Origin: a virus
IMG/VR virus record: IMGVR_UViG_3300027747_002444
Span: 1 to 64,000 of that record
DNA: 64,000 bases
Direction: 5' to 3' (one strand)
Part shown: piece by piece, positions 7,384-38,600 of the stretch
Layout: each line of letters starts with the position of its first letter
How positions within the stretch are numbered: the first letter of the stretch is position 1
Translations under genes and position numbers: made by a program
Notes under the pieces: generated by a model
Told to the model about the DNA's origin: nothing
The model's input: the letters and a program-made list of their open reading frames with translations, nothing else
Database searches by the model: none

Positions 7384-7417
7384 TTGTTTTTTTGTTGAGA
7401 TGGTTTCTAGGTTGCCC

Positions 7418-7540: not shown

Positions 7541-7702
7541 TTAGTAAAGATTGTATTTGTAATTTCCGATCTGGTTATTGTTAAACAAACGAGTGTGCCA
7601 GTTGCTGTGAGTCGTCTCCATGATATGCATGAAGATGAGAGAATTCTTTGGGTTGACTTCCTTTCCGAAGAAACGAAGTAGTAGTGTGATTGGATCTTTC
7701 AT
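7541..7702 (-). CDS. Hypothetical protein (53 aa)
   Basis: A 53-residue frame starting MKDPITLLLRFFGKEVNPKN, with LIFMHIMETTHSNWHTRLFNN in the middle. Basic, no clear membrane segment. It starts at 7702. A sigma70-like promoter (-35 TTGACA at 7735-7740, -10 CATACT at 7712-7717) lies immediately upstream, leaving a predicted leader of only a few nucleotides. Unknown function. Confidence 0.55.
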   Translation of the reverse strand: MKDPITLLLRFFGKEVNPKNSLIFMHIMETTHSNWHTRLFNNNQIGNYKYNLY

Positions 7703-7711
7703 TGGACTTAT

Positions 7712-7740
7712 AGTATGATTGTTTTTGGGTTTGGTGTCAA
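7712..7740 (-). promoter_or_regulatory. Sigma70-like promoter without box
   Basis: Consensus -35 TTGACA (7735-7740), 17-bp spacer, -10 CATACT (7712-7717) read leftward. It drives the gene starting at 7702 and would give a nearly leaderless transcript. Confidence 0.5.
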
Positions 7741-7742
7741 TA

Positions 7743-8324
7743 TCAATCTTTGGATTTCTTTGTAGCGTAAGACTTCCAGATCGTCAAATCCAAATCGGCA
7801 GGAGTCATCTGGTGAATAATTGCTTCTTGCAAGAACAACTTCTCAATCTCTGCGTATTTCTTTTTCGGAGGAGTTGCTTTAGGAATACTCTTATATCCCT
7901 TCTCACTCATCCACTTCAAGATGTGTGTATCAAGCACAGCAACATTGGCATCTGGTCGAGAGTGAAGGATAAAGAAACGAGCAGTCTTTGATCCGATACC
8001 TTTGATGCTCTCCAGTTGTTCGATGGTGACCTTGGACAAACGACCTTTGAACTTGAGGATCTCCTTGAATGCATGACCGATCCTTTTGTATTGACCTAGC
8101 TTAAACTCCTTCATCTGGATCTCAAGCCACCCCATGCTAGACAGACGAGAAATAAGAGCAAAGGGTTTGCCTTTCTCCTTATGCATACAATGTTTGAGGA
8201 AAGCATCTAGCTTCCTTGCCTGTTGCTCTGCTCCTTTGCCAGCAACGAGGATTGCGAACATAAGGAACTCTTCCAGTTCAGCTTCGGTGCGATTATAGTT
8301 GGTGATGGTGGTTGGTGTGATCAT
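7743..8324 (-). CDS. HhH-GPD DNA glycosylase / AP-lyase (Ogg2- or endonuclease III-like)
   Basis: A 193-residue protein with the helix-hairpin-helix GPD signature: IKGIGSKTA with catalytic-type Lys113, followed by the Asp in VLDTHILKW (Asp132). It should excise oxidised bases and nick the strand, or act as a mono-functional glycosylase. The short size, the SIKGIGSKTARFFIL loop and absence of a C-terminal Fe-S Cys cluster favour the Ogg2 8-oxoguanine glycosylase type over endonuclease III. Role: base excision on phage or host DNA. Last gene of a pair with the papain-like gene upstream (5-nt gap). Confidence 0.8.
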   Translation of the reverse strand: MITPTTITNYNRTEAELEEFLMFAILVAGKGAEQQARKLDAFLKHCMHKEKGKPFALISRLSSMGWLEIQMKEFKLGQYKRIGHAFKEILKFKGRLSKVTIEQLESIKGIGSKTARFFILHSRPDANVAVLDTHILKWMSEKGYKSIPKATPPKKKYAEIEKLFLQEAIIHQMTPADLDLTIWKSYATKKSKD

Positions 8325-8329
8325 AGGTA

Positions 8330-8743
8330 TTAGAAACTAGCGATTGCTTTGATTGTGTCAAGTCTTTTTGATTCGACTTTCCAACTATCTGTAATTCTCT
8401 GGAGAGGAGTATTTGTCAGATGGTCGTATATGATGCCATCAATGATAGCAAAGGCATGACCACGACGACGAACCAAGTAGCGACCAGTTGGGTATCTTTC
8501 AAGGAATTTTTGGATGGTTATAGGTTTGTGTTTCATCTTGCGAAGACTGATACCATGCTTCTTTGCTGTCAAGGCTAATTTTTCGGTATGAAATCCACGA
8601 CCAGTTTTTCTTCCTGCGGCTTTTCCTATTTCAAAAGCTTCATTATAGGGAATGCCAGCAGATGTGGACAATGCACAGATGGTGCAGTTGTTGTTGTCTT
8701 TGATACCAGAATCTTTCTCTGGTGTAACTCTGATGTGTTTCAT
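8330..8743 (-). CDS. Papain/C39-like cysteine peptidase fold protein
   Basis: A 137-residue protein starting at 8743 (MKHIRVTPEK). NNNC20-TICALSTSAGIPYNEAF has the Cys at the start of a helix. H96 in RRRGHAFAIIDG is followed by an Asp (107), forming a candidate Cys-His-Asp triad of the papain/C39 fold. Phage proteins of this type may be proteases or transglutaminase-like enzymes; substrate unknown. The longer frame to 8977 crosses the promoter and the terminator and is rejected. Unit order: box promoter, this gene, glycosylase. Confidence 0.6.
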   Translation of the reverse strand: MKHIRVTPEKDSGIKDNNNCTICALSTSAGIPYNEAFEIGKAAGRKTGRGFHTEKLALTAKKHGISLRKMKHKPITIQKFLERYPTGRYLVRRRGHAFAIIDGIIYDHLTNTPLQRITDSWKVESKRLDTIKAIASF

Positions 8744-8750
8744 TGGTAGT

Positions 8751-8847
8751 AGTTTGGTTTGGTTTGGAAATATGCCAAGAACTTTCTGCACCAACCTTTG
8801 CGTAAGACGTTGAAAGTAAAATATATTTAAATAACAACGTCTTACGC
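8751..8847 (-). promoter_or_regulatory. Box-type early promoter with weak -10
   Basis: Box 8800-8809 and inverted box 8838-8847 (38 bp). The -35 TTGGCA (8773-8778) is at the family-typical 22-bp step. The -10 position (CAAACT, 8751-8756) is poor. The spacer between boxes includes TAAAATATATTTAAATAAC. It drives the gene starting at 8743. Confidence 0.55.
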
Positions 8848-8884
8848 AGTTTACGGGCTGCGGCTGCGGGAACCTTTCGAGGCA

Positions 8885-8912
8885 CAAAAAAACCCGTCGA
8901 AATCGACGGGTT
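8885..8912 (-). terminator. Rho-independent terminator
   Basis: Stem AACCCGTCGA/TCGACGGGTT with a TT loop and a T7 tail read leftward. It lies immediately 3' of the tRNA-Lys gene and separates it from the next box promoter. Confidence 0.9.
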
Positions 8913-8919
8913 AAAATTG

Positions 8920-8991
8920 TGGGATCGTCGAGACTCGAACTCGAAACCAATTCGTTAAAAGCGAACTGCTCTACCATTGAGCTACGATCCC
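8920..8991 (-). tRNA. tRNA-Lys (UUU)
   Basis: Full cloverleaf on the minus strand: acceptor GGGATCG/CGATCCC, D-stem GCTC/GAGC, anticodon stem GTTCG/CGAAT with loop CTTTTAA (anticodon TTT), T-arm TCGAG-TTCGAGT-CTCGA, discriminator A. The CCA is not encoded. Reads AAA, which is frequent in the AT-rich structural genes. Confidence 0.95.
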
Positions 8992-9001
8992 ATCGGTATC
9001 C

Positions 9002-9199
9002 TTATATCTTTGGATAAATTGTATTTTTAAGCAATGCCAAAATATCCTCGTTCAATACCTGAAGGAGTATAGGCGCATCAAAAAAAGCAAAAAGGTGTTC
9101 ACCAACCAGAAAAACCCTATACTTACCTTTGTATTCATTTTTAAGTTCGACAACGAACTCCTGAGACATTTGACTAGAGATATGTCTTGCAGTATTCAT
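9002..9199 (-). CDS. Hypothetical protein (65 aa)
   Basis: Unrecognised. N-terminal helix (MNTARHISSQMSQEFVVELK), beta hairpin (KYRVFLVGEHLFAFF), C-terminal helix (LLQVLNEDILALLKN). Positioned between tRNA-Arg and tRNA-Lys. No Shine-Dalgarno seen. Small phage gene of unknown role. Confidence 0.6.
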   Translation of the reverse strand: MNTARHISSQMSQEFVVELKNEYKGKYRVFLVGEHLFAFFDAPILLQVLNEDILALLKNTIYPKI

Positions 9200-9234
9200 T
9201 TGTCTATTGTAAAGATTTTTTAATTTATTGTCAA

Positions 9235-9309
9235 TGGTGCTTTCAGTAGGAATCGAACCTACATTTGATCTTTAGAAGAGATCAGTCCTATCCGTTGAAC
9301 GATGAAAGC
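9235..9309 (-). tRNA. tRNA-Arg (UCU) with encoded CCA
   Basis: Acceptor GCTTTCA/TGAAAGC, anticodon stem GATCT/AGATC with loop CTTCTAA (anticodon TCT), T-arm GTAGG-TTCGATT-CCTAC, discriminator A, then genomic CCA. Decodes AGA, common in this genome and often rare in GC-richer hosts. Confidence 0.93.
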
Positions 9310-9317
9310 ATATTGAC

Positions 9318-9390
9318 TGCCCTCGGAGGGATTCGAACCCCCAACCAATCAGTTATGAGCCGACTGCTCTGACCATTGAGCTACAAGGGC
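9318..9390 (-). tRNA. tRNA-Met (CAU)
   Basis: Acceptor GCCCTTG/CGAGGGC, D-stem GCTC/GAGC, anticodon stem GTCGG/CTGAT with loop CTCATAA (anticodon CAT), T-arm GGGGG-TTCGAAT-CCCTC, discriminator A. CCA not encoded. Could be elongator Met or the CAU-type tRNA-Ile that is modified to lysidine; the sequence alone does not settle it. Confidence 0.93.
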
Positions 9391-9397
9391 GAAGGTT

Positions 9398-9610
9398 CTA
9401 AAGTTCTATTGGAATGTCATGGAGTTCTGAACCAATAGGAATGTTTTTATTGTCTGTTCCATTGTTTCCGAACAAGTCATCTGTTGGTTCAAAGATCCCC
9501 CTTTTTGGAGAATAGTAATCATCCTTTGAAGTGATTAGAGATTCAACCCAACTCTCATCTTCCGCCCAAGGGTTGCTCTTTGGAAGATGAACCCTGTATG
9601 CGTAAGACAT
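9398..9610 (-). CDS. Hypothetical acidic protein (70 aa)
   Basis: Unrecognised, acidic and Ser/Asp-rich (AEDESWVESLITSKDDYYSPKRGIF). The first codons (MSYAYR) coincide with a degenerate copy of the 10-mer box (9600-9609). It follows the 98-residue gene with a 2-nt gap, so it is probably co-transcribed with rIIB. Confidence 0.6.
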   Translation of the reverse strand: MSYAYRVHLPKSNPWAEDESWVESLITSKDDYYSPKRGIFEPTDDLFGNNGTDNKNIPIGSELHDIPIEL

Positions 9611-9612
9611 AG

Positions 9613-9909
9613 TTAGGAGAGTAGGAACTCATAAAGGTTTCCAACAATCAGGCGATTGTCATTGGTGATTAGTGCATTCTCCAACTCATCGTAGAAAATG
9701 ACTGCTTTGTTTCCACCGATAACAATGTCTGGTAGACCTTCATCGTAGGTTGCATCTCCGTTCCAGTAATCGACTTCAATATCGAAAACTTTGTTTCCTG
9801 CTTCATCGAGAGTATAACCTTGGATGTTTTTTGCTTCCTTGATCTTCTTGACAATCATCTGGGTGTTTGTCAGAAGTTGCTCTCCATCTTCATCAATTAT
9901 TGTTGACAT
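9613..9909 (-). CDS. Hypothetical acidic protein (98 aa)
   Basis: Start at 9909 (MSTIIDEDGE) preferred over 9945, which overlaps rIIB. Acidic, with beta-rich segments (GNKVFDIEVDYW, PDIVIGGNKAVIFYDELENAL). No known family. It lies 4 nt downstream of rIIB and is probably translated from the same mRNA. Confidence 0.65.
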   Translation of the reverse strand: MSTIIDEDGEQLLTNTQMIVKKIKEAKNIQGYTLDEAGNKVFDIEVDYWNGDATYDEGLPDIVIGGNKAVIFYDELENALITNDNRLIVGNLYEFLLS

Positions 9910-9913
9910 TGTA

Positions 9914-11005
9914 TTAGTTCTTCTTTGTGAATTTACCAAGGGCATCCCTCAAGTTGTGGAAGAGAGATCCATCTGGCTTCTTGCCATACTGGTTGTCATC
10001 AGAGTGACAAGATCCACCACAACAAGTTGTCTCCTCGGTTTGAGTGTATCCACACTTCTTGTCAAGGTAATCATTGAAGGTTGGCTCATCACAAAGACCA
10101 GCATCTTCAACATCCCTGCATGACCCACAACGAGATTTCTCGTAGTCATCATAAGTGTTAGTGAGATCAGTTCCACAGATAGTGCAGAGTGCTGGCTCAT
10201 CGTTGTCCTTGTCCTCGTAGTCTCCACCATCGGAGGAGTAGAGATCGGAGTCGAATCCGTTCTCTCCACGACCCAACTTCTCCCTCCAATTCTCGGTGTA
10301 TTCAGCGATCACCTCATACTTGCAAGTGCGACCCTTGGTGTTGTTGTAGTCAGCAGGGATAGCAACTACATCCTTGGGATTGATCTTGACGATCATGGTC
10401 TTGCCTCCGTTGCTGTCAGAGAAGTGAGGGAGATACTTGATGGAGCAGAAGTGCAAACCATAAGAGCAAGTGCGATCCTTGTCCTCATCCACCTTGTAGC
10501 GAGGCATCTCACACACCTTGCCAACAGAGTTGTCAAATGATCCAGAGTGAATGTCCTTGTAGTCAGCACGAACATTCTTGAAGGCGAGGAAGAATCCATC
10601 CTCGGTGATAGGCAACTCTCCAACATCAAGGAAGTCATACAACTCATTGACTGCACGATAGGAGGAGTTCTCCATCAAGTTGTAGAGGAAATTGAGCAAA
10701 GGCTTGAATGGCAAGTCCTGTTGCATGAAGGAGATCACCCTCTTGGTGAGAGTATTGTGAACTGGTTCTCCCTTATAGACGATGATGCCATCAAGGATCT
10801 GGACATCGGTGTTGAGAACGAAGTCCCTCACCTTACGAGACAGATCGACTGCATCAAGGAAAGCATCCCAATTCTGTGCTTTGACAGCATCAAGAGCTTT
10901 GGTGTAGTTTGGGTGAGTTTGGTCAATCGTGTAGATTGCCCCGTTGATACAAGCAGAGATTTTTCCCTGTCCTGTAATGGTGACTGCATTGTTGGTGTTA
11001 TTCAT
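9914..11005 (-). CDS. rIIB: rIIB-like protein
   Basis: A 363-residue homologue of phage T4 rIIB, recognised from the conserved central block: YRAVNELYDFL, PITEDGFFLAFKNVR, FDNSVGKVCEMPR, CSYGLHFCS and the following VVAIPADYNNTKGRTCKYEV segment. T4 rIIB acts with rIIA in lysis inhibition and in overcoming the lambda RexAB exclusion; the molecular mechanism is not fully known. The C-terminal 100 residues differ: an acidic linker then CTICGTDL and CGSCRD, a zinc-ribbon-like Cys pair, and CCGGSC. It lies 38 nt downstream of rIIA, as in T4, but has its own consensus promoter. Confidence 0.93.
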   Translation of the reverse strand: MNNTNNAVTITGQGKISACINGAIYTIDQTHPNYTKALDAVKAQNWDAFLDAVDLSRKVRDFVLNTDVQILDGIIVYKGEPVHNTLTKRVISFMQQDLPFKPLLNFLYNLMENSSYRAVNELYDFLDVGELPITEDGFFLAFKNVRADYKDIHSGSFDNSVGKVCEMPRYKVDEDKDRTCSYGLHFCSIKYLPHFSDSNGGKTMIVKINPKDVVAIPADYNNTKGRTCKYEVIAEYTENWREKLGRGENGFDSDLYSSDGGDYEDKDNDEPALCTICGTDLTNTYDDYEKSRCGSCRDVEDAGLCDEPTFNDYLDKKCGYTQTEETTCCGGSCHSDDNQYGKKPDGSLFHNLRDALGKFTKKN

Positions 11006-11011
11006 ATAGTG

Positions 11012-11040
11012 ATACTACTTTGTTTTGTTTGGGTTGTCAA
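11012..11040 (-). promoter_or_regulatory. Sigma70 promoter of rIIB (near-leaderless)
   Basis: -35 TTGACA (11035-11040), 17-bp spacer, -10 TAGTAT (11012-11017), all read leftward in the rIIA-rIIB gap. Only 6 nt separate the -10 from the rIIB ATG, so transcription would start at or beside the start codon. There is no box upstream. Confidence 0.6.
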
Positions 11041-11043
11041 TAC

Positions 11044-13026
11044 TTATTTTTCTAGTTTCTTTGCGAGGAGAAGATACATCTGTTGATCGTCTCCATAAGA
11101 ACCTAACAGATTAGAGAGAAGGAAGTCAAGTGCTTTATCTGCCATCTTGAAAGTATCTCCCATAACCTTTTGATCCAAGAAGGGAAGAACATTCTGGACT
11201 TTCTCATACTTATTACCAAGTGACTTGAGCTTGACAAGCATCTGCTTAATGAGGTTGGAGTCATCAAGGTCTTTATACTCTTTATGAGCAACAATGTCAT
11301 TGATCCTGTGCCTTGCGTAAGACGATATAACCCCTACCTCCTCCATGTCAACCCAAGTAAGGTCATGCTCCCTGTTGAACCATTCAATGAAGTCTTGACT
11401 TCCCCTTGCCTTGAGCTTCTTTGCCTCCTTCTCGGTGACAAGAACAACCTCATTGATATTGATAGTAAATGCTTGACAATAGGTGCGAAGGCGATCCTTG
11501 TCTTGGATCAGGCGAAGATTATTGAGCTTGACATTCAACTCCCATGTCTTTCCCTTGAGAATATAATACTTGGGGATATTTGTGCATGATGGTTCGATTG
11601 TCCTTGACTCCCAAGAGACATTGTAGGTAGCCCCAATCTCGTAGCAAGTGATGTCCTCTTTAGCCTTGATAACGATTGTTCCGTTCTTGAGCTTCCTCTT
11701 GGCAGTAGGAGAAGGCAAAGAGGAAGCAGATTTGAATACATCGGGGAAACCAACCTCCAACATGGACTGCTTCTGTTCTTGGGTGAACAAGATAGCACAG
11801 GTATCACTTGTATCACGAATGAGCATCTTGATACGAGCAAATGGATTCTTACATCCTCCATCATCGTAATACCATTCAAACTTCTTATCGAAGCTGAAGG
11901 ATGTGCTGGTGTTCACCTGCTTCCTGTATGAGTAGCGAGAGAAGGACTGAATAGAAGTCTTGAGAATATCCTTGACAAACTTGTGGGGTTCACTGATGTC
12001 GTAACCTTTATACACGACATCCTTCATCTCAAATGCTTGGTTGCCATAGAAGGAGAACCTCTCTTGGAAAGCTCCTAATGCCCTGATGCTGTCAAGGATA
12101 TTATCCTTGGATACGATCTGATCCTTTGCCTTGTGTTTGATCTCTGTCAAGACTTTTTCCATCTTGTCATTGATAGCCTTGATAGTGGCATCGTCATAGG
12201 AGAGATGCTCACGACTTGGAGCAAAGTCCAACTCACCCATAGCAAACTTGAGAACCACACCCTTGCGAACAATCTGGTTATACTTGTCAGCAACCTTGTA
12301 GTGGTCGATAGGATAGGTGACTCCACCCATGATTGCAAATGCCTCCCATTGTGTAGAGGAATCCAAGAACATCCAATCCTCACCAGAGAACATAGGTTTC
12401 TCCTCTGACCAATAGCACACTCCACCAGAGGTAGTTGGCTTGACATCGAAGAAACGAAATGCTTTCTGGACTGATTTGATAAACTCATTGAAGTCTTTCT
12501 CCTTGACAGGGATCTGGACAGCAACTCCGTTTGACTCGCTAGTGTTCTCCTGACTCATCAGAGCAATCGTAGGGTTGCCATCTTGAGCAAAGTAGGCATT
12601 GTAGATTCTCTTGACTCCATCATGGATAGAGGTGACAGAGAAGTTGTCCGTATAACAGAAGGGAGACTTTGACCCAAGACCCAAGCATCCAATCTGATCG
12701 TTGGTGTTGGTCTTTGTGGACTCAAAGTAGGTGGAGTAAATGTCGTAGATGTTCTGGTGAGAGATCCCTGTTCCAAAGTCTTGAATGGTGATCCAAGGCT
12801 CAAGAGAGTTGGGAAGGTGAATATGGAAAGGTTGATCCTTCTTACCAGAGGCAACCATTGAGTCATTAGCGTTGCATCCCAACTCCCTAACGATTGCCAG
12901 AGGCTTATCGGAGTAGAGGTCAGAGAGGATCTGGAAGGCTTTACGAGAGGACTTCATCTTGAAGGAGGAAGTCTCGGTGATGTTTCCGATCTGTTCGATT
13001 TGATTAGGTGTGTCGAGTAGTTTCAT
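11044..13026 (-). CDS. rIIA: rIIA-like protein, GHKL ATPase-type N-terminus
   Basis: A 660-residue homologue of T4 rIIA (T4: about 725). The N-terminal GHKL/HATPase region is clear: N-box VRELGCNANDS (46-56), G1 box DFGTGIS (83-89), then GCLGLGSKSPF. This fold binds ATP in gyrase B, Hsp90 and MutL. Start at 13026 (MKLLDTPNQI) fits the predicted transcription start near 13046; the longer frame to 13083 reaches into the promoter. With rIIB it is expected at the membrane, acting in lysis timing and exclusion resistance. An exact GCGTAAGACG box (11315-11324) occurs inside the gene. Confidence 0.92.
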   Translation of the reverse strand: MKLLDTPNQIEQIGNITETSSFKMKSSRKAFQILSDLYSDKPLAIVRELGCNANDSMVASGKKDQPFHIHLPNSLEPWITIQDFGTGISHQNIYDIYSTYFESTKTNTNDQIGCLGLGSKSPFCYTDNFSVTSIHDGVKRIYNAYFAQDGNPTIALMSQENTSESNGVAVQIPVKEKDFNEFIKSVQKAFRFFDVKPTTSGGVCYWSEEKPMFSGEDWMFLDSSTQWEAFAIMGGVTYPIDHYKVADKYNQIVRKGVVLKFAMGELDFAPSREHLSYDDATIKAINDKMEKVLTEIKHKAKDQIVSKDNILDSIRALGAFQERFSFYGNQAFEMKDVVYKGYDISEPHKFVKDILKTSIQSFSRYSYRKQVNTSTSFSFDKKFEWYYDDGGCKNPFARIKMLIRDTSDTCAILFTQEQKQSMLEVGFPDVFKSASSLPSPTAKRKLKNGTIVIKAKEDITCYEIGATYNVSWESRTIEPSCTNIPKYYILKGKTWELNVKLNNLRLIQDKDRLRTYCQAFTININEVVLVTEKEAKKLKARGSQDFIEWFNREHDLTWVDMEEVGVISSYARHRINDIVAHKEYKDLDDSNLIKQMLVKLKSLGNKYEKVQNVLPFLDQKVMGDTFKMADKALDFLLSNLLGSYGDDQQMYLLLAKKLEK

Positions 13027-13052
13027 GGGTTGTTTGGTTGGTGTTGAAGATG

Positions 13053-13183
13053 ACAATATACAAAACCATTCCCCATGCAACAAAAATTTTCACCAACTTT
13101 TGCGTAAGACGCTGTTATTAGATGTCCAGTTACCTTGCGTAAGACCTTGAAAGTAGTCATATAATACTAACAACGTCTTACGC
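13053..13183 (-). promoter_or_regulatory. Box-type early promoter of rIIA
   Basis: Proximal box 13102-13111, a one-base variant (GCGTAAGACC) at 13137-13146 (35 bp), inverted box 13174-13183 (37 bp). The -35 TTGCAT (13075-13080) and -10 TATTGT (13053-13058) have a 16-bp spacer. The box-to-(-35) step is 22 bp and the predicted leader is about 20 nt. Confidence 0.75.
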
Positions 13184-13261
13184 AGCGGCGGATAGAACGC
13201 AAATGTTTAGAATTTTTGTTGGTTTGGTTTCTTACATTGTTTTTGAAAGTAATGTAAAAAA

Positions 13262-13300
13262 CAAAAAAAACCCCAACCACCGAGCGAGGTGATTGGGGTT
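13262..13300 (-). terminator. Rho-independent terminator
   Basis: Stem AACCCCAATCACCTC/GGTGGTTGGGGTT with a T8 tail read leftward. It ends the 73-residue gene at 13324-13545 and insulates the rIIA promoter. Confidence 0.9.
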
Positions 13301-13323
13301 TGCTCTTGCAACCGAATTGTTGC

Positions 13324-13545
13324 TTATTTCTTCTTCCTATTACAAGTCCACTTACCGAGGCTGTCACGACGATTGTGATAGCGGCACATGAGCTTCATCT
13401 TGCCAAACTGATTGACTGCTCCAAGAAGGCTATACCGAGAAGTATTGATCTCCTCCATGACTACTGCCTTCTTCACATCAGTTGGAAGAGTATTGAATCC
13501 CCCGATATACGAGAAATCTTTAACTACGATTGTGTTATTGGTCAT
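13324..13545 (-). CDS. Small basic protein with a strong Shine-Dalgarno (73 aa)
   Basis: Unrecognised. Basic C-terminus (CRYHNRRDSLGKWTCNRKKK). It is one of the few genes here with a perfect ribosome-binding site: AAAGGAGGTGAAAT, 7 nt from the ATG at 13545. So the host ribosome does use the canonical anti-SD, which makes the absence of SD elsewhere noteworthy. The Cys/His pattern (C-x-Y-H-...-C) is too short to call a zinc finger. Confidence 0.7.
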   Translation of the reverse strand: MTNNTIVVKDFSYIGGFNTLPTDVKKAVVMEEINTSRYSLLGAVNQFGKMKLMCRYHNRRDSLGKWTCNRKKK

Positions 13546-13579
13546 TATTATTTCACCTCCTTTTGTTTGTATTGAAAAA

Positions 13580-13750
13580 TTATCCTACAAAAGAACCATC
13601 CTTGTTCATGGATATGCCCCTTGCCTTTGCTCTCTTGTCAAGTCTCTTGGCACGACAGGTTGCAATCTCTTCCCTCTCCTTTTGTGAAAGGTTAAGAAGA
13701 TCATACTTGGTTTCCTTGTCTAGCTTGTGCCAGACGGATTCCGTTTTCAT
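13580..13750 (-). CDS. Small basic helical protein (56 aa)
   Basis: Start at 13750 (MKTESVWHKL) chosen because GGAGAG lies 11 nt upstream. An in-frame ATG at 13774 would add eight residues but begins on a TATAAATG late-promoter-like box (13772-13779). The sequence KYDLLNLSQKEREEIATCRAKRLDKRAKARG is a long basic helix, suggestive of nucleic acid binding. Unknown family. Confidence 0.6.
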   Translation of the reverse strand: MKTESVWHKLDKETKYDLLNLSQKEREEIATCRAKRLDKRAKARGISMNKDGSFVG

Positions 13751-13868
13751 TACATTTTTAGCTCTCCAGATCATTTATATATTATGCACTAGGTGCGTTA
13801 GAATGTCAATAGTATTGTTTTTATTGTTTTAGGGATGGAAGTCCTCTGGAAGTCCATTAGGTAACTGC

Positions 13869-14057
13869 TCATGCCTCGTCCTCCTCTACTTCTTCCAAGG
13901 TTTCAACCTCGTATTCAGCATTGCCAGATCCCCATAGTGCCTCCATAGCGATTTCAATGGCATTATCGTATGCCTCCTCTTCGTTGTTTGCCTCCACATC
14001 AAAAGACATGGAATCATAGGTTGTGCGAGTGACTTCGACTTTGTATGTTTTCTTCAT
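13869..14057 (-). CDS. DpnD/PcfM-like small protein
   Basis: A 62-residue protein matching the DpnD/PcfM pattern by eye: an N-terminal strand KKTYKVEVTRTTYDSMSFDVEA followed by EEEAYDNAIEIAMEA, then an acidic tail. Members are short proteins on phages and mobile elements with no established function. It lies 4 nt downstream of the gene at 14062 in the same operon. Confidence 0.6.
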   Translation of the reverse strand: MKKTYKVEVTRTTYDSMSFDVEANNEEEAYDNAIEIAMEALWGSGNAEYEVETLEEVEEDEA

Positions 14058-14061
14058 AGGT

Positions 14062-14373
14062 TTAGGGTTCTAGGTTGATGTAGATTTGCTCTTTGTTGAG
14101 ATCCCACAGCATATCGACAAATGCTTTCCATTCCTCCTTGGTGCAAGTATCTATTTCCTCCCCATCCTCATCGTTAATACCAGAAGAGAACCACTCATAA
14201 GCATCGTCAATGAAACGAGCGAATCTCTCCCCTGCTATCAGAGTCAGATTGTTATCCCCATAGGAGAAATCTGGATTTGCACTCCCTAGCATATCCCAGA
14301 ACCAATCCCATTCCGCAGGGACTAGATCGGTTAGGTCTACTACTTTTACTTCTCTTGGTGTTGGTGTTGTCAT
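14062..14373 (-). CDS. Hypothetical acidic Trp-rich protein (103 aa)
   Basis: Start at 14373 (MTTPTPREVK) is taken, 12 nt after the upstream stop. An in-frame ATG at 14403 would overlap the upstream gene by 19 nt. Acidic with Trp pairs (AEWDWFWDML, AYEWFSSG, EEWKAFVDMLWDL), consistent with a compact helical protein. No family recognised. Confidence 0.6.
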   Translation of the reverse strand: MTTPTPREVKVVDLTDLVPAEWDWFWDMLGSANPDFSYGDNNLTLIAGERFARFIDDAYEWFSSGINDEDGEEIDTCTKEEWKAFVDMLWDLNKEQIYINLEP

Positions 14374-14384
14374 GTGTCTAGCTT

Positions 14385-14573
14385 TTAGTTGTTCTTCAGC
14401 CATTGGCGAAGAGGTTTGACTCCCAAATCCCCCCTGTGGAAGAGATGGAATGGTTTGGTTGGATCGGAAGGGAACAAGGAGAACTTGTTACCCTTACGGA
14501 CTATTCTGATCCCCCTACTGATAGCAAGATCAATAAGGGAATCAAACTCTTTGGAGTGGTGTTTGCGGCTCAT
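14385..14573 (-). CDS. Small basic protein, HicA-like pattern (62 aa)
   Basis: Start at 14573 (MSRKHHSKEF) because the longer frame to 14615 crosses the -10 and -35. The layout helix, strand GIRIVRKGNKFSLF, P-rich loop, LFHRGD, then LRQWLKNN resembles the HicA/dsRBD-like small fold that is common in phage genomes, but the match is weak. First gene of the leftward early block beside the non-coding hub. Predicted leader only a few nt. Confidence 0.55.
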   Translation of the reverse strand: MSRKHHSKEFDSLIDLAISRGIRIVRKGNKFSLFPSDPTKPFHLFHRGDLGVKPLRQWLKNN

Positions 14574-14583
14574 AGCGACTCTC

Positions 14584-14813
14584 ACAATATAGAAAACATT
14601 CCACAGGTCAAACATTTTTCTGACCTATTTTTGCGTAAGACGTTATTACTAGTGCCGCCAGAAGTTTGCGTAAGACGTTGTTACCCAGACAAAGGATTTT
14701 ACAAAGTCTTTTAACATCTTACAATTACTTGCAATGTCTTCAGATGTCTTCAGAAGTCTTTCGCCTCGGAGCGAATCATTTCTGAAATATCCACTATATT
14801 TATCGTCTTACGC
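14584..14813 (-). promoter_or_regulatory. Box-type early promoter at the divergence hub
   Basis: Boxes 14633-14642 and 14668-14677 (35 bp); the inverted copy lies far away at 14804-14813. The -35 TTGACC (14606-14611) and -10 TATTGT (14584-14589) have a 16-bp spacer, and the box step is 22 bp. Short GTCTTCAGA repeats lie between the boxes (14734-14760). Confidence 0.65.
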
Positions 14814-15120
14814 AAATCTTCAGAAAGCCTTACAACAATTTACAAAATTTTGCCATGCAAGTTTTTGTAAGAATTTGTAGGTTAAACTAATTCTAATAAG
14901 TCGTTAGAAGTCGTTAGAAGTCGTTAGAAGTCGTTAGAAGTCGTTAGAAGTCGTTAAAAGTCGTTAGAAGTCGTTAGAAATTTAGATGTTAGTTCTTGTT
15001 AGATAATTCTTTGGAACAACTCGTCTGAAGTTTTTGGGGTTGCCAAAGATGCCAGAACACAACCAAAAAATCTTTTTTTTATTTTTTTAAACAAAATCAT
15101 TACTCTAAAGATAAGTTTGT
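14700..15120. other. Non-coding hub, candidate origin or control region
   Basis: No convincing gene is seen here. The stretch holds short GTCTTCAGA-type direct repeats, an AT-rich segment at about 14820-14895 and the 10-bp tandem array. It lies between the leftward early genes and the genes that run right from 15.6 kb. That position plus iteron-like repeats beside AT-rich DNA is what an origin looks like; the function is inferred. Confidence 0.4.
14899..14980. repeat. Eight tandem copies of a 10-bp unit (TCGTTAGAAG)
   Basis: Units begin at 14901, 14911, 14921, 14931, 14941, 14951, 14961 and 14971. All are identical except a G-to-A change in the sixth and a final-base change in the eighth. 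The 10-bp period equals about one helical turn. Confidence 0.95.
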
Positions 15121-17795: not shown

Positions 17796-17960
17796 ATGAG
17801 TGGCATATTATTTGAATATTTTTATGAATATGTTCACAAAGAAGATGTAAAGATGCTAAGAATTGTCACCGAGCATAGTTCAATTGCCTATGAATTATTA
17901 CGTCAAGATTACCCTCACGGGGAATTAAAATTACTTGAGATTCGTCGTCTGGACACCTGA
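17796..17960 (+). CDS. Small hypothetical protein (54 aa)
   Basis: MSGILFEYFYEYVHKEDVKM and an alpha/beta remainder ending LKLLEIRRLDT. It starts just after CTAAATATAC (late-promoter-like). It is convergent with the ABC-GNAT gene and overlaps its 3' end by 30 nt, which lowers confidence. Confidence 0.45.
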   Translation: MSGILFEYFYEYVHKEDVKMLRIVTEHSSIAYELLRQDYPHGELKLLEIRRLDT

Positions 17961-19022
17961 TCCAACATATTCATGAGAAAAACAATTTCTCCTTGGATCA
18001 ATAATATAGTTATTGTAGGTAGGAATTCCCTGTGCTCTTCTCTTCTCATAATCCTTTCTCCTTACCTTGTTTTTACTTGTGGGTTTCCACAACGGAGACA
18101 ACATGCGATAAGATCCCATCCTTGGATGAGCAGTGCGAGAGAAATAACGATACCCGTTTTCAATAAACATCTGTGCAATTGCATCGCTGAACCTTACACC
18201 GATTCCTAGTCCTTGGTAGTCAGGTAGCACAACGGTTCTGTGACCTCTCCATGCATTCTTGAGTGATCCACTAGGCATAGTGATAGCTGCACCAAAGGCG
18301 ATTGGTTCATTGTTCCATGTACCAATAAAGCACCTTGATGCATTGTTTAGGTCTCCACTTAAATAATGATGCTTCTTGAAAATTTGCCAGTATTCTTTAG
18401 AGCAAGGCTGAATGTCGATTGTAATATTTGGTCTTGGACAAAGACACCCCCTTGGCATACAAGACTCGTTCAATGTATCATACACCCAATCAGGTTGCAA
18501 CCATTCGATTATATCTTTATGACATGTAGCAAATACCACACCCTTCATGCCCTGTTGTCGAATGTATCTTTGGATAGCATTGGATGCACTCTTGGCAACA
18601 GTTCGATCCACAACACTTGTAAACTCATCAAAGCTAGTGTTACTATTGAGCATACGAGCTATCCTTGCTCTGAACTGCTCCCCATTACTCAAGACATGAT
18701 AGGGTTTACACCAAGAAGGAACAGAGTTCAGTCCAATACTTGATAGCCTTTCTATTGCTTGCTCTCCCATTTGGGATACTATTGCCTTGTTGGGATTCCA
18801 TTCTAACTCTTCGGTAATATTGAAATGTTCTTTTAGTAGTTGAGTCTTACCACTTCCAGATGCTCCCACAATTAGTCCTATACCCCATGATCCATCTCTC
18901 TTTGGGGCATCAAACTTGGGTAGAATGAACTCACTTGTACCTGTGAAGTTGTAATCAAATGGTTTACATGCTTCAAGTAGTGCATTGTCCATGTCAACTT
19001 TAACCGATAAGACTTTCTGCAT
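17931..19022 (-). CDS. ABC-type ATPase fused to a GNAT acetyltransferase-like domain
   Basis: A 363-residue two-domain protein (COG2401-type architecture). N-terminal ABC ATPase: Walker A GASGSGKT (53-60), signature LSNGE (111-115, usual LSGGQ), Walker B/D-loop SFDEFTSVVD (130-139), H-loop ATCHKD (165-170). It has no membrane domain, so it is not a transporter subunit. C-terminal GNAT-like region (about 205-330): HHYLSGD, then acetyl-CoA loop DYQGLGIG (268-275), then RTAHPRMGSYR. A possible role is nucleotide-driven transfer of an acyl group, for example to nucleic acid, as in the Mom group of GNAT-fold enzymes; substrate unknown. Confidence 0.8.
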   Translation of the reverse strand: MQKVLSVKVDMDNALLEACKPFDYNFTGTSEFILPKFDAPKRDGSWGIGLIVGASGSGKTQLLKEHFNITEELEWNPNKAIVSQMGEQAIERLSSIGLNSVPSWCKPYHVLSNGEQFRARIARMLNSNTSFDEFTSVVDRTVAKSASNAIQRYIRQQGMKGVVFATCHKDIIEWLQPDWVYDTLNESCMPRGCLCPRPNITIDIQPCSKEYWQIFKKHHYLSGDLNNASRCFIGTWNNEPIAFGAAITMPSGSLKNAWRGHRTVVLPDYQGLGIGVRFSDAIAQMFIENGYRYFSRTAHPRMGSYRMLSPLWKPTSKNKVRRKDYEKRRAQGIPTYNNYIIDPRRNCFSHEYVGSGVQTTNLK

Positions 19023-23979: not shown

Positions 23980-24615
23980 TCAAATCTCAGGAAACATAAA
24001 ATTATTAAGAAAATGTTTAGCATTCTCAACTCCTACATCAGCTGCCAAAGCCTTAAAAGTTTTTTCATTTTTCTTTTGTCCAATGCAATAGGCATTTTGT
24101 TTTTCTATATTTAATTTATATCTGTCCCTATAATCATTGGCATAGTTTAAGTATTCTCTGATAATTGTTATCGAATTAATAAAAAGAAGATCTAATTCTT
24201 CCTCATTGGGAGTTACGCATATAAAATTATCTCCAAAGAAATTTGCCCATTCTGGTAATTTTCTTTCTGGTGATGTTATGTAATTTTTAAATTTAAACAA
24301 ACTCTTTTGTACTATTTGATTGGCATTAATAGGCGTAACATCAAAGAAGAAACCTGTAATTTTATTTCCTATCTCTATAAAGTCTACTCCTAAAATGGGA
24401 AAATCTATTGTAGCATTGGGAAATATATTGGCATGAAATACTTTAATTTTTTTTGTTTCATAGTATTCTAAATGTATATGTCTAAAAATAGGACTCTTAT
24501 ATACATTATTATACCAATTACCATTTGGATTGTCTAATTCTGGACGATCTGGATAACCAAATGCACTTGTAAACTCTTGTGTTACAAGATCAAAATATTT
24601 TCTTAGTTTGTCCAT
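23980..24615 (-). CDS. Ferredoxin-dependent bilin reductase (PcyA/PcyX/PebS family)
   Basis: A 211-residue protein of the FDBR family, which reduces biliverdin IXalpha using ferredoxin electrons without metal or flavin. Hallmark positions can be matched to PcyA: Glu in HLEY (Glu50, PcyA Glu76), His in VFHANIFP (His61, PcyA His88) and Asp in PILGVD (Asp78, PcyA Asp105; His-to-Asp spacing 17 in both). The family C-terminal block (YCIGQKKNEKTFKALAADVG) is present. Shorter than PcyA (about 250). The PcyX or PebS product phycoerythrobilin is possible, but which double bonds are reduced cannot be told by eye. The heme oxygenase gene upstream overlaps it by 13 nt. Confidence 0.88.
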   Translation of the reverse strand: MDKLRKYFDLVTQEFTSAFGYPDRPELDNPNGNWYNNVYKSPIFRHIHLEYYETKKIKVFHANIFPNATIDFPILGVDFIEIGNKITGFFFDVTPINANQIVQKSLFKFKNYITSPERKLPEWANFFGDNFICVTPNEEELDLLFINSITIIREYLNYANDYRDRYKLNIEKQNAYCIGQKKNEKTFKALAADVGVENAKHFLNNFMFPEI

Positions 24616-25172
24616 ATTTCCTCAAACAAATCAATATGAAACTGAAAGAATTCTTTGGTAAGCAAAACGACATCATCATCACTAACCATATCAAAATCCT
24701 TCGTAAGGATGTGTCTCACTTGATTAATAACTTTTGCTGGGTCATTTGCTTCATATGTTGCATTGTATGGAGCCTGTGACCTTGATAAAATCCTACCACC
24801 ATAGAAGTCAGCAAGCCACCTTAAATATAAATCTGATCTCAGAGACCCAAGATGCTTTACCCACATGCTAGAAACATAGTTAATGGTGATATCTTTAAGA
24901 GATGATTTTCCATAACCAATATCCGTAATAAGCTTGTCAATATCTTTTTGAATATAAGTGCTTCTTTTAAGCTCTGGATTTTCAAGAATTTCTTTTGGTA
25001 TAAGTCTTTGCTCAACAGTTTGATAGATAGGAAGTAAATTAATCAAAAGATCAAGTAGATGCGCCTTGTTAAAGGTTCCTGTTACAAATGACTGCATAAG
25101 TGGATGTTGCTCTGATTTAGCATGAAGTTCGGCAGTTTCTTCTTTAAGTCTTGTTTGTAGATTTGTACTCAT
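24603..25172 (-). CDS. Heme oxygenase (biliverdin-forming)
   Basis: A 189-residue heme oxygenase. The proximal-ligand region LKEETAELHAKSEQHPLMQSF matches the HO-1 pattern, with His17 in the place of human His25. The distal-helix region WLADFYGGRIL (GG at 127-128) corresponds to YLGDLSGGQIL with Gln replaced by Arg. It should cleave heme to biliverdin, CO and iron using ferredoxin or another reductant, in the cytoplasm. First gene of the operon, followed by the bilin reductase, so the pair forms a heme-to-reduced-bilin route. No other pigment or phycobilisome gene is visible in the window. Confidence 0.9.
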   Translation of the reverse strand: MSTNLQTRLKEETAELHAKSEQHPLMQSFVTGTFNKAHLLDLLINLLPIYQTVEQRLIPKEILENPELKRSTYIQKDIDKLITDIGYGKSSLKDITINYVSSMWVKHLGSLRSDLYLRWLADFYGGRILSRSQAPYNATYEANDPAKVINQVRHILTKDFDMVSDDDVVLLTKEFFQFHIDLFEEIWTN

Positions 25173-29882: not shown

Positions 29883-32800
29883 ATGGATGAAGATTTAAAC
29901 AAATTTGAAATAAAACCATGTCTTGGTTGGAATTATCCAGACGAAGATGGTAATTTGTCTGGTGAAGTAGGGTTTGCTAAAAACAATGATGCATTACCGC
30001 TTTTAAACAATTTACCAGTTGGTAATGGCTTTTTGATGCCAAAAAATCTTTCTGATTATTATGGATTTAGTACTATATCAAATCAATCCAGTGGAATCTT
30101 AAACAATGATGGTGGTGGACAAACCATTGCCATCATTGATGCTTATGGCAATCCTAATGTACAAAGTGACTTAGATGCATTCTGTGCATACGTGGGAATA
30201 CCGTCAACGCAAGTACAAGTGTATTATCCTTATGGCGCACCAACATCTTACGATGATCAATGGGCATTGGAAACTAATCTGGATGTACAATATGCTCATG
30301 CAATGGCATTATCAGCAAAAATTGCATTGATTGTATCACCAAATAATACAAATTTCAATACAACTTATGGTTGTATGAACTATGCTATTAATACTTTAAG
30401 CGCAAATGTTTTATCGATGAGTTTTATATTCAGGGGTTATGATGCAGTTGCTGGTTCTTATCCAGATACAGTTTTTGAAAACCTTAGTGCGCATTATGTT
30501 GCTGGTGCTGGGGATTGGTGGTCAGAATCTAGTTGGCCCGCATCATCTCCTTATGTTTTAGGTGTTGGTGGAAGTTATTTATACGGTGGTGATTCAAACA
30601 ATTATTCAGCATATATTGGTTCTTACAATGAACAAAATGCATGGGGTAATACTGGTGGTGGAATGAGTGTTGTTAACACAAGACCATATTACCAAAATGT
30701 TGCATCAAGTTATACTGGTAGAGGTGTGCCAGATGTGGGATATAATGCTGGAAGTGGTGTTGGTGTTTATATCACATATCCCGTTGCTGGTAGTTCTGGT
30801 TGGGCATCGGTTATGGGAACCAGTGCTGGTACTCCACAATGGGCAGCACTATTAGCAAGAATGAACAGTGCTGGTGTTGGATATCAGAAGAAACAATTAA
30901 TACATAAAACTCTTTATACTCTTGCTTCATCAAATTATTCCCATTATTTCAATGATGTGATTTATGGCAGTAATTCAAATCCCTTTTTAGGTATTACTGG
31001 ATACTCAGCTGGGATTGGTTATGATCTGCTCAATGGGTTGGGTTCACCAAAGGTTGCGAGTTTTTTACCAGTTTTAACATCTCATTCAATAACTCCTTCC
31101 CCCACACCAAGTCAAAAAAATACAGATATAATGTATAACATTAATTCCTATAGCATTTCTGATCTATATTGGAATCCAGTTTCATTTAATCCTATTGGTG
31201 AGAAGTATAATTTAAATAAGAACTATTATGTATTTGATAACGGAATGTCATTTAATGTATATGATGCATTGAGTGGTTTAAATGATTTATCATTCAATAA
31301 TAAAAATGGAATATTTTTAACAGGATTGCAACAGAACACTGATATAGTTTCTGATAAATCACAACCTGAAATTGTTAATACATTAAGTGTAATTGAAACT
31401 CCAATAGTATCAAACGATGGATACGTTCTTAATATTAATTCTTCTTTTGCCTTATCAAAAACAAATAGAACTACCTTTGACATTGATGATAAATTTGATT
31501 TTACTTTTGAAAATTCAAAGGTTTCGGTTAAACATACTCCAAGTAATAGTCTAAGCGCAAACAGTTTCTTTTTAACCTATGTAAACAATCAATTAAAATT
31601 TGCACCAGCAGTAACACCGCTTGGTAATTCTCAATTGTTTGAATACACTCTTGGTGAAAGATATATAGCATTGTTTTTAAATGGTACAAATTACACATAT
31701 CCTTTAAAAGTTGATACTGATTTAGTTCCAACTTATTTTGATCCCACTCAACAATCTTTACCTTCAACGTGCTTGTTGTATCTTCCTTCCTTTAACAATA
31801 AAGAAAGAGATTACTCAAGTGTTTCTGATAGTTTCTTGGTATCATACGATGCAAGTCCTTTAATAAGACAATCTGAATTATCTGTATCTAAAAAGGATAG
31901 TAATTATTCTCAAAATTATTTAGGCATTTTCCCAAATGAAAATTATACATTGGATGCTAACGGAAATGCGGTTTTTGATTTATACTTCCATGCATTAAAA
32001 AACTATCAGACAACCGAATACCATTACAATAGTAATGGGGTAAACAGAACCTATGATAAAATCTATTCTGGTACAAACCAAAGTAAAGGTTTGGATAAAA
32101 TTTATCTCGGTTATCAAACAAACACAGTTAAGTTAGAATTTAAACCTAGTGTTTTAAATAAATTTTTCTATAGTCCAACAAGTGAAACAGTAAATTTAAA
32201 TGATGCTGGGTTTATTACTGATGGAGCAACAGCAGGAAGTTTACCCATTATATCAGATCGTTTTTATACTGGTGCAAATGGAATACTTGGACAAACAACA
32301 AATGTAAACATTGATTCATCCAATCAGTCTGGGAATTCTTTCCTGTGCTCATGGTTATCAAATGTTGGAGGATCATTAAAATGGATGGATCGATATTATA
32401 ATTCTGCTTTCTATTCAAATGATCAAGCACTTTCCGCTACGTCACTAGTTTATAATGATAAACTTGATCCGAATAAACCTTATGTATATGACACACCAAC
32501 TAATGCTCGTTTAGATGCAGGTGTTCTATATCACTATTACCATGTTGGTAAAGAAGATAGTATAAATTTCTTACCTTATCTTAATTATAATTCTTTAACA
32601 AAAAAGTATTCAAATATTTTAACCATAACAAACTGGACATCATCTAAATTAGATGATATGTCAACATATAATAATAATGGTTTAGTTTATAATAATAATC
32701 CACTTAATTACAATGGAAACTATTTAAACTTTGATGGAACCAATTATGGTATATTTCCAGCAACCGATAGTCTTTTAGAGAATAAAAAGATCTCCGTTGG

Positions 32801-34586
32801 TATATGGTTAAACGTAAACGACTGGTCAAATATAAAAGGGTATCAAATATTTGGAAACTATTACAATAGTGGGTTTGGTTTAACATGTGACACTAATAAG
32901 TTTTGTCCAGTTTTAACTATTGTTAATAATGCCACAAATAAAATTTATAATTTAAATTATAGATTTGGTAATATATCTAGTAAAGCCATTATGGATTCTG
33001 ATTCAAATTCTGCTTTCAGTATAATTCAAAGATTACCAGATTATTCATATTGGGTTTTTGATACCTTTAACTTTAAGGGTGTTTACTATAGTCCTGATGA
33101 TGTAGTATTAAAAGATATAAAAATTCCAAAAGTTATTGATAAAATTGATCAGATTGAATTTAACTCTGTTGGCGTAATGTATTTTTATGATAACAGTTTG
33201 AAAACGTATATTTCTTTAAATTCTTTGGGAACTTATCTTGGATTGGTTAAGGTTAATTTTAAAACACAACGAATTGAAATTGATATAAATGACAAGGTTC
33301 TTGAAATTTATGGCAATGCATCCGTTGTAGATAATGATAATAATATATGGGAAATGATTGGATCTAATCTTTACAAGAATAGAAATATCTATGCAACAAT
33401 TGGTGCAGCAAGACAGATGACATGTGATAACTATAATAATCTTTGGATTCTGCTTTCCAATGATACATATACAAAAATAGATTCAAATGGTAATATCTTG
33501 TTTAATTATAGTTTTAATAACAATGTAGTAAGTGTAACAAATTGTCCATTACCACCACCTATAATAAAACCCAATGAATATGCTACAACAGAAGATATTC
33601 CCGTTTTAAGTGATAATTTGGAAAATTCAATATTTGCTGATAATGAGTATGAAATTGTTGTAGATCCTGTGTTGACCAACACTATATATCCAAAGAATCC
33701 TTCAAATGTAAAAATTAGAAATATCAATTTCATTAATTCTGCAATTGAATCTTATAATAAGAAATGTTCATCATCTTCACAAAATTCAGATCAAATGATA
33801 ATGGTTAACGAAACAGACGGCGAAGCTTACATTTTTGATCAATATGGAACTCCTTTAATAGGTATTAATTTTACGGGGTTAGTTGACAAAAACGAATCTT
33901 TAAATTTTCATGCAAAGGGTGATTTTACTGGTTATCAATATGTAAGAAAATATAAAAATTCCAATAAGAAACTATCTTGGAAATTTAAAGTTGCTGATAA
34001 GGATGGTAATAATTCTATATTACATTCTTTACCTTATGATGTTAGTAACTTGGTTAGTGGGTGGCATCATTTTGGATTTAGTTTTGATTCTGTCAATGGT
34101 ATTGCAAAATGTTTCGTGGATTCCATTCCCGTGGCATCTTCTAATTTTACAAAGAATTATGTTCTTCAATATGATTACAGAACCTCTTTGCTTTTGGGAA
34201 CAACTACTGTTAAGAATAATATCTTAAACAAGTTTTTAAATACTAATGATGGTTATAATTTTGTAGGAAAGGTTGCAGATTTAAGAGTTTACAATATATA
34301 TTTAGATGAACCAGAATTCCAACAATTATATAAAGCTTCTGAATTTTCACCAAATTCAACATCTTTAAATTGGAATATGAAAGTTGGATCAAGAAATTAT
34401 GTGGAAGAGATAACTCATTGGTTTAAGTTTCAACTAAAGGGTAATAAAAGTAAATATTACAATATTAATATACATAACTTAGATGTAAGCGATTCAATCA
34501 AATCAAATGTTGAAACAGCACTAAGAAATGTTATCAGTAAAACGGCACCTGCTTATGCAGAACTTCACAAAATAAATTGGATATAA
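29883..34586 (+). CDS. Virion-type protein with sedolisin (S53) protease domain and LamG-like domains (1567 aa)
   Basis: Residues about 50-400 match the sedolisin/kumamolisin peptidase fold with the full catalytic set: Glu130 and Asp134 in ALETNLDVQYAHA (E-x3-D), oxyanion Asp211 in GAGDWW and nucleophile Ser314 in GTSAGTPQWAAL. The Ca-site ending FNDVIYG and GYDLLNGLGSP is present. Sedolisins normally need a large pro-domain; only about 50 residues precede the domain here. The rest is beta-rich, with two LamG/ConA-like domains (about 915-1010 and 1390-1510). Likely digests or processes surface protein during infection. No signal peptide. Confidence 0.85.
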   Translation: MDEDLNKFEIKPCLGWNYPDEDGNLSGEVGFAKNNDALPLLNNLPVGNGFLMPKNLSDYYGFSTISNQSSGILNNDGGGQTIAIIDAYGNPNVQSDLDAFCAYVGIPSTQVQVYYPYGAPTSYDDQWALETNLDVQYAHAMALSAKIALIVSPNNTNFNTTYGCMNYAINTLSANVLSMSFIFRGYDAVAGSYPDTVFENLSAHYVAGAGDWWSESSWPASSPYVLGVGGSYLYGGDSNNYSAYIGSYNEQNAWGNTGGGMSVVNTRPYYQNVASSYTGRGVPDVGYNAGSGVGVYITYPVAGSSGWASVMGTSAGTPQWAALLARMNSAGVGYQKKQLIHKTLYTLASSNYSHYFNDVIYGSNSNPFLGITGYSAGIGYDLLNGLGSPKVASFLPVLTSHSITPSPTPSQKNTDIMYNINSYSISDLYWNPVSFNPIGEKYNLNKNYYVFDNGMSFNVYDALSGLNDLSFNNKNGIFLTGLQQNTDIVSDKSQPEIVNTLSVIETPIVSNDGYVLNINSSFALSKTNRTTFDIDDKFDFTFENSKVSVKHTPSNSLSANSFFLTYVNNQLKFAPAVTPLGNSQLFEYTLGERYIALFLNGTNYTYPLKVDTDLVPTYFDPTQQSLPSTCLLYLPSFNNKERDYSSVSDSFLVSYDASPLIRQSELSVSKKDSNYSQNYLGIFPNENYTLDANGNAVFDLYFHALKNYQTTEYHYNSNGVNRTYDKIYSGTNQSKGLDKIYLGYQTNTVKLEFKPSVLNKFFYSPTSETVNLNDAGFITDGATAGSLPIISDRFYTGANGILGQTTNVNIDSSNQSGNSFLCSWLSNVGGSLKWMDRYYNSAFYSNDQALSATSLVYNDKLDPNKPYVYDTPTNARLDAGVLYHYYHVGKEDSINFLPYLNYNSLTKKYSNILTITNWTSSKLDDMSTYNNNGLVYNNNPLNYNGNYLNFDGTNYGIFPATDSLLENKKISVGIWLNVNDWSNIKGYQIFGNYYNSGFGLTCDTNKFCPVLTIVNNATNKIYNLNYRFGNISSKAIMDSDSNSAFSIIQRLPDYSYWVFDTFNFKGVYYSPDDVVLKDIKIPKVIDKIDQIEFNSVGVMYFYDNSLKTYISLNSLGTYLGLVKVNFKTQRIEIDINDKVLEIYGNASVVDNDNNIWEMIGSNLYKNRNIYATIGAARQMTCDNYNNLWILLSNDTYTKIDSNGNILFNYSFNNNVVSVTNCPLPPPIIKPNEYATTEDIPVLSDNLENSIFADNEYEIVVDPVLTNTIYPKNPSNVKIRNINFINSAIESYNKKCSSSSQNSDQMIMVNETDGEAYIFDQYGTPLIGINFTGLVDKNESLNFHAKGDFTGYQYVRKYKNSNKKLSWKFKVADKDGNNSILHSLPYDVSNLVSGWHHFGFSFDSVNGIAKCFVDSIPVASSNFTKNYVLQYDYRTSLLLGTTTVKNNILNKFLNTNDGYNFVGKVADLRVYNIYLDEPEFQQLYKASEFSPNSTSLNWNMKVGSRNYVEEITHWFKFQLKGNKSKYYNINIHNLDVSDSIKSNVETALRNVISKTAPAYAELHKINWI

Positions 34587-38141: not shown

Positions 38142-38600
38142 ATGCAAATAGAAATAATAAAAGTTAACAGTTTAAATACATCAAATGATTCAACAAAAAT
38201 ATTTGGATTATATTTAAAAAAATTTCAATCTTATTTACACATGCTTCACTGGTATTCCCCTAATCATAATGTTCATGAGATACTAGGCGAAGTTTATGAA
38301 AGTATAGATGGTAGCTTTGATAAACTTCAGGAGGAAATCATCGGTACAACCAGACTAAACGGTGCAGTATTTCCTATGATTAATAATCATCTTGATGTTG
38401 ATGAACTGAGTCAATATGGTCGTGATGTATGTCAAATTATAGAGTTCTATAATAAAGCCTCCAGTGAATTGAAGACTATATTGTGTAGTATTGATTTCAA
38501 TCAATTTGTTACAACTGTTCAATCTGGTATTAACAATACAAAAGAAGACATTATTACAACACTAAACAAAGGAAGTTATTTACTTTCTATGGTTAATTAA
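38142..38600 (+). CDS. Ferritin/Dps-like protein (DUF5856-type, 152 aa)
   Basis: A helical protein with the Dps-like first-helix motif SYLHMLHWYSPNHNVHEILG followed by EVYESIDGSFDKLQEEIIG. Dps and ferritin-like proteins bind iron with His and acidic residues in this segment. The fold fits a four-helix bundle with some metal-ligand positions kept (HW, HE, E in EE). Phage members might limit DNA damage or bind iron. The function is inferred from the pattern only. Confidence 0.6.
   Translation: MQIEIIKVNSLNTSNDSTKIFGLYLKKFQSYLHMLHWYSPNHNVHEILGEVYESIDGSFDKLQEEIIGTTRLNGAVFPMINNHLDVDELSQYGRDVCQIIEFYNKASSELKTILCSIDFNQFVTTVQSGINNTKEDIITTLNKGSYLLSMVN

Follow-up and report, generated by a model that had tools for sequence, protein, structure and literature searches.

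The 64,000 nucleotides of viral DNA analysed here (the window) carry two overlapping genes that encode a heme oxygenase (HO) and a ferredoxin-dependent bilin reductase (FDBR). We read them as an auxiliary metabolic cassette, made up of two genes of a T4-like phage, that probably leads from heme through biliverdin to a reduced bilin, most likely phycocyanobilin. Because hemO-FDBR pairs from marine and freshwater phages, including a PcyA-type phage enzyme behind an HO, have already been published (PMC11480375), the window cassette is a further case of a known arrangement. New here are a reductase lineage that appears to be separate and, at the residue believed to govern D-ring reduction, natural variation between Glu and Gln. 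The phage-type PcyX pathway to phycoerythrobilin, which the preliminary description of this DNA had put forward, was not supported.

Both genes have exactly the coordinates given in that description, and profile, fold and substitution data agree with their identification. The FDBR scored 71 bits against PF05996 (Fe_bilin_red; curated cut-off 31) and the HO 38.5 bits against PF01126 (curated cut-off 23). The best NCBIfam model for the FDBR was PcyA, with an E-value of 4e-26 that lies below the curated equivalog cut-off of that model, and the closest solved proteins by sequence were PcyA (2g18, 1e-17) and then PcyX (5owg, 2e-14). For the HO, the closest solved protein was HmuO of Corynebacterium (PDB, E 1e-4). 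AlphaFold (AF2) models, built from alignments that left out the row of Pelagibacter phage Mosig, had a mean pLDDT of 90.9 for the FDBR and likewise of 90.9 for the HO. When these models were compared with the PDB by Foldseek, the FDBR matched PcyA (2e-13), PebA (2.5e-10), PebS (9e-8) and PcyX (4e-6, to a structure with only 181 residues modelled), and the top matches of the HO were exclusively heme oxygenases (E ~2e-7). The reductase is thus an FDBR by profile and by fold; it is short, as had been remarked (211 aa vs 243-248 for PcyA), yet its fold is complete.

Single-sequence scans of IMG/VR yielded three independent close relatives (L002, L003 and L004/L005, the last two with identical proteins), whose FDBRs are 73% (L002, L003) or 80% (L004/L005) identical to that of the window. 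In all of them the HO gene lies upstream of the FDBR gene with the same 13-nt overlap. The FDBR start and a GAGGAA Shine-Dalgarno-like sequence are located within the 3′ end of the HO gene, and GAGGAA, GAAGAA or GAAGAG closely precedes the FDBR ATG in all four clade members (window, L002, L003 and L004); translation of the two genes, from HO to FDBR, is predicted to be coupled. Promoter and terminator scans around the cassette gave no signal above shuffles. In all computable comparisons within the close clade, dN/dS was 0.05-0.20 for both genes, which are under purifying selection.

Table 1. Coordinates of the two cassette genes and of their overlap in the window.
Feature	Position	Strand	Support
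Heme oxygenase (HO), 189 aa	24603-25172	-	PF01126 E 1.4e-9; fold E 2e-7
Ferredoxin-dependent bilin reductase (FDBR), 211 aa, PcyA-type active site	23980-24615	-	PF05996 E 1.4e-19; fold E 2e-13
HO/FDBR overlap, 13 nt	24603-24615	-	same length in L002, L003, L004

The source IMG/VR virus record has 68,928 bp, most of which is the window. Because a gp25-like baseplate protein and a gp44-like clamp loader are encoded in the record just outside the window, and a family B DNA polymerase, a T4-type terminase and a tail sheath are encoded in close relatives, we classify the virus by gene content as a T4-like myovirus, represented here by a fragment. The cassette directly follows the DNA polymerase gene in L003 and L004 and lies beside a VWA-domain protein and a tail-fibre module, syntenic in both, in the window and L002; it therefore occupies two positions in one phage group.

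The residues Glu50, His61 and Asp78 of the reductase, singled out in the preliminary description, align with PcyA Glu76, His88 and Asp105 and complete the PcyA triad. Among 69 FDBR rows, His61 and Asp78 are unchanged throughout, and the Glu50 column contains 53 Asp, 13 Glu and 3 Gln. An Asp at this site, the equivalent of PcyA Glu76, is the signature of PcyX (Asp55; PMC11480375), from which Glu76 is missing (PMC10151467). Position 86, which is Met in 45 of the 45 Asp-type rows used, is Val in the window FDBR and Val or Ile across its clade. The spacing between the Glu and the His is 11 residues in the window clade and 11-12 in cyanophage and cyanobacterial PcyA, compared with 14 in those phage rows of the Asp and Glu types that were inspected. 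All 13 Peb rows lack Glu76 and have Asn where PcyA has His88, and His61 and Glu50 therefore speak against an assignment to PebS or PebA. The same two residues speak against pre-PcyA, which is without both His88 and Glu76 (PMC10151467).

For the phylogeny, two maximum likelihood trees were inferred under a site-heterogeneous model, without the CB_2 vPcyA and without Bradyrhizobium-type PcyA. In both trees the four window-clade FDBRs group together (support 100/99-100) on a stem branch of ~3.2 changes per site, and the clade is placed outside PcyX plus the Glu-type phage clade as well as outside cyanobacterial and cyanophage PcyA. The tree program flagged long-branch effects. When the window clade was forced into union with other groups, AU tests gave p-values of 0.096 for PcyX, which is not formally rejected, 0.15 for the Glu-type phage group and 0.031 for cyanophage PcyA. 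Because the tests leave the unions with PcyX and with the Glu-type phage group, the exact attachment point of the clade is uncertain. A search for PcyA in 385 alphaproteobacterial genomes returned very divergent homologues only. The trees suggest a deep, separate PcyA-like branch, and the clustering with PcyX that had been anticipated was not recovered in either of them; phycoerythrobilin formation by a PcyX pathway is likewise not supported for a protein that is without the Asp, the Met86 and the 14-residue spacing.

Within the window clade, the position of Glu50 is occupied by Glu in the window and L003 and by Gln in L002 and L004; the more distant L083 likewise has Gln. The PcyA mutant E76Q, whose structure (3i95) was among the Foldseek matches, is impaired in D-ring reduction, and the Gln of the clade is, judged from the alignment, its natural counterpart. 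In PcyA, the proton for the first (D-ring) step is proposed to come from Glu76 (PMC9800206). With Gln here in half of the four clade members, the bilin product may vary within the clade, and D-ring reduction is perhaps not strictly selected there. It is conceivable, and we offer it as speculation that is rather unlikely to hold, that these enzymes form a class of their own among phage bilin reductases, belonging by descent to neither PcyX nor PcyA, whose D-ring proton donor switches naturally between Glu and Gln, so that closely related phages would produce different bilins or simply have to dispose of biliverdin.

In the HO, His17 corresponds in the alignment to the proximal His, as the preliminary description had led us to expect, and it does not vary across 60 HO rows. 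Heme binding and alpha-meso cleavage are plausible because the family alignment shows no change at Tyr116, Gly125 and Gly126 and almost none at Asp122; the equivalents of human HO-1 Gly143/144 are retained. The distal motif is LADFYGGR (residues 120-127) in place of the usual LGDxSGGQ. Of its two substitutions, the Arg for Gln (YGGR) had been recognised earlier and is confined to the window clade (4 of 60 rows), and the Ala at the position of human HO-1 Gly139 (Ala121; Ala in 8 of 60 rows) had been missed. The same Ala is found in four other phage HOs that adjoin intact FDBRs. Human HO-1 mutants at Gly139 lose oxygenase activity and gain peroxidase activity, and because the distal helix of the window protein bears both substitutions, its activity cannot be taken for granted.

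Among viral contigs the cassette is far commoner than the few published examples would suggest. A profile scan found FDBR relatives in at least 532 stretches, the best 80 of which were kept for analysis, and an HO relative lay near the FDBR, usually directly upstream, in 74 of the 84 loci analysed. In named phages outside the cyanophages, FDBR matches came from one record, that of Mosig, which also has an HO. A tblastn search of named phages, cyanophages included, with the window HO gave no relative even at E 0.1, the Mosig HO being too distant, and a plasmid search for Glu-type FDBRs found none. One 140-kb viral contig (L023, 5306-6654) has a single HO followed by tandem FDBRs, one Asp-type (PcyX-like) and one Glu-type (PcyA-like). 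Cassettes also occur in the very large viral contigs L048 (357 kb, with a 5-ALA synthase) and L066 (267 kb). HO and FDBR genes binned in Neomarinimicrobiota, Arcticimaribacter and Rickettsiales MAGs (L087, L088 and L090) probably belong to phage contigs within these bins, because L087 and L088, the two included in the tree, fall within the phage PcyX clade and the fragment L090 carries the Asp typical of PcyX.

Among characterized systems, the vHemO/vPcyA pair of the freshwater (peat bog) phage CB_2 was biochemically shown to make biliverdin and phycocyanobilin (PMC11480375). Compared by published description rather than by sequence, it resembles the window cassette in joining an HO to an FDBR without the PcyX Asp, and its host is proposed to be non-photosynthetic; it differs in having valaS. 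This 5-ALA synthase gene was not found in the record of the window or in the relatives G001-G004 and is present in 3 of 16 viral records (G005, G007 and G009), so that, as far as the fragments reach, the window does not carry a three-gene valaS cassette. Marine hemO-pcyX cassettes (PcyX_EBK42635, 5owg; Pelagibacter phage Mosig EXVC030M) share the upstream HO, the overlapping genes and the T4-like phage, but their PcyX has Asp at the Glu76 position, Met86 and the 14-residue spacing and falls in a separate clade, with Mosig only 30% (28-30%) identical to the window in the FDBR and 21% in the HO. Cyanobacterial and cyanophage PcyA have in common with the window FDBR the Glu76/His88/Asp105 triad, Ile/Val86, a spacing of 11-12 and the nearest solved fold, whereas identity is ~25-30%, the clade is another one, and the window FDBR is HO-coupled and ~30 residues shorter. 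PebS, PebA and PebB share the FDBR fold but have Asn at 88 and no Glu76 and form a distant clade. The locus thus adds a reductase lineage outside PcyX and breaks the rule by which an HO-linked phage FDBR is a PcyX and makes phycoerythrobilin.

In the proposed pathway, the HO would open host heme to biliverdin IX-alpha, iron and CO, and the translationally coupled FDBR would reduce the biliverdin with host ferredoxin by a PcyA-type proton-coupled mechanism, in which Glu50 would serve the D-ring vinyl and His61 and Asp78 the A-ring. The expected end product is a four-electron-reduced bilin, and we slightly favour phycocyanobilin over all other products together; both enzyme activities and the regiospecificity are predictions. 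Because no ferredoxin gene (PF00111) was found in the record of the window or in G001-G004 (only G008 among the records has one), the electron donor would come from the host.

The literature poses as an open question what heme-to-bilin enzymes are for in phages whose bacterial hosts are apparently non-photosynthetic (PMC11480375). Neither the 68.9 kb record nor 11 related viral records yielded a photosystem reaction-centre protein (PF00124), in line with the preliminary description, which had seen no photosynthesis genes, and no phytochrome PHY domain was found in 16 viral records. Because no phage gene for a photoreceptor, antenna or photosystem was found, we lean weakly towards heme and iron mobilisation together with biliverdin disposal, ahead of pigment supply, as the benefit to the phage; missing photosynthesis genes are weak evidence because all relevant records are fragments. 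Genes for 2OG-Fe(II) oxygenases lie close to the cassette in two sequence clusters (20 of 84 and 15 of 84 loci, counts that have no background rate), and a Dps/ferritin-like protein (phrog_858, E 7e-8) with homologues in G001 (53% identity) and G002 (a weaker match) is encoded beside the tail-fibre module at 38142-38600 (+). These neighbours fit an iron-centred role circumstantially. If producers of phycocyanobilin, phycoerythrobilin and dihydrobiliverdin all stand behind the same HO, selection probably does not act on which pigment is made, and the release of iron, CO or the clearance of biliverdin would be better hypotheses.

Several other explanations have to be weighed against this reading. 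That the reductase is a PcyX-type phycoerythrobilin synthase is quite unlikely: the HO-FDBR order is that of marine PcyX cassettes, there is weak similarity (28-30% to Mosig; PDB PcyX at 2e-14) and the AU test allows the union, but the protein has Glu rather than Asp at the PcyX-specific catalytic position, Val rather than Met at position 86 and a spacing of 11 rather than 14, and both trees place it outside the PcyX clade. A doubtful but possible alternative is relaxed or altered regiospecificity within the clade, with A-ring-only (phytochromobilin-like) reduction, two-electron reduction to dihydrobiliverdin or a mixture, so that removal of biliverdin would matter and not a defined pigment. 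The Gln in L002, L004 and L083 in place of Glu76, the residue proposed to donate the D-ring proton in PcyA (PMC9800206), speaks for it; the window protein retains Glu50, however, and the whole FDBR gene is under strong purifying selection.

A cyanobacterial host, in which the cassette would supply phycobilisomes as proposed for cyanophage pebS and pcyA, is also unlikely. Cyanophages do carry pcyA, and among named phages cyanophages supply many of the closest DNA polymerases, but at only 31-35% identity; moreover, reaction-centre genes were found neither in the record nor in its relatives (all incomplete), the FDBR falls outside cyanophage PcyA (AU p 0.031), and the tblastn search linked the window HO to no named phage, cyanophages included. 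Loss of biliverdin formation by the HO, which might then be a peroxidase-like heme protein in a pair that does something else, would be in keeping with the Gly139-to-Ala and Gln145-to-Arg equivalents in the distal helix and with the peroxidase gain of the human Gly139 mutants. We consider it very improbable, as the same Ala occurs in four other phage HOs beside intact FDBRs, dN/dS is low, and an intact FDBR would be left without phage-supplied substrate. An assembly artefact or host DNA contamination, to which the differing composition of window positions 1-16 kb might point, is practically negligible: the cassette belongs to the AT-rich part and is flanked by phage genes whose order is shared with L002, and its recurrence in three independent phage contigs refutes this explanation.

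Other features of the window were recorded alongside the cassette. The sequence TGCGTAAGACG occurs in 29 exact copies, 28 of them within positions 1-15000 and one at 48306 (0 expected in shuffles), and at least eight are arranged as inverted pairs that form long hairpins; the sequence was absent from all 146 loci fetched. The region of positions 1-15000 has a higher G+C content than most of the window, and at 14888-14980 the 10-mer AAGTCGTTAG is repeated in tandem about nine times. Positions 17931-19022 (-) encode a fusion of an ABC-ATPase and a GNAT acetyltransferase (phrog_11143, E 1e-104) with relatives at 40-45% in phages of Aeromonas, Thomasclavelia, Vibrio and Tenacibaculum. A 1567-aa protein (29883-34586, +) that adjoins a 1494-aa VWA-domain protein has a C-terminal pentraxin-like domain, and its N-terminus resembles a sedolisin (S53) protease, judged by eye from the motif GTSAGTPQWAA.
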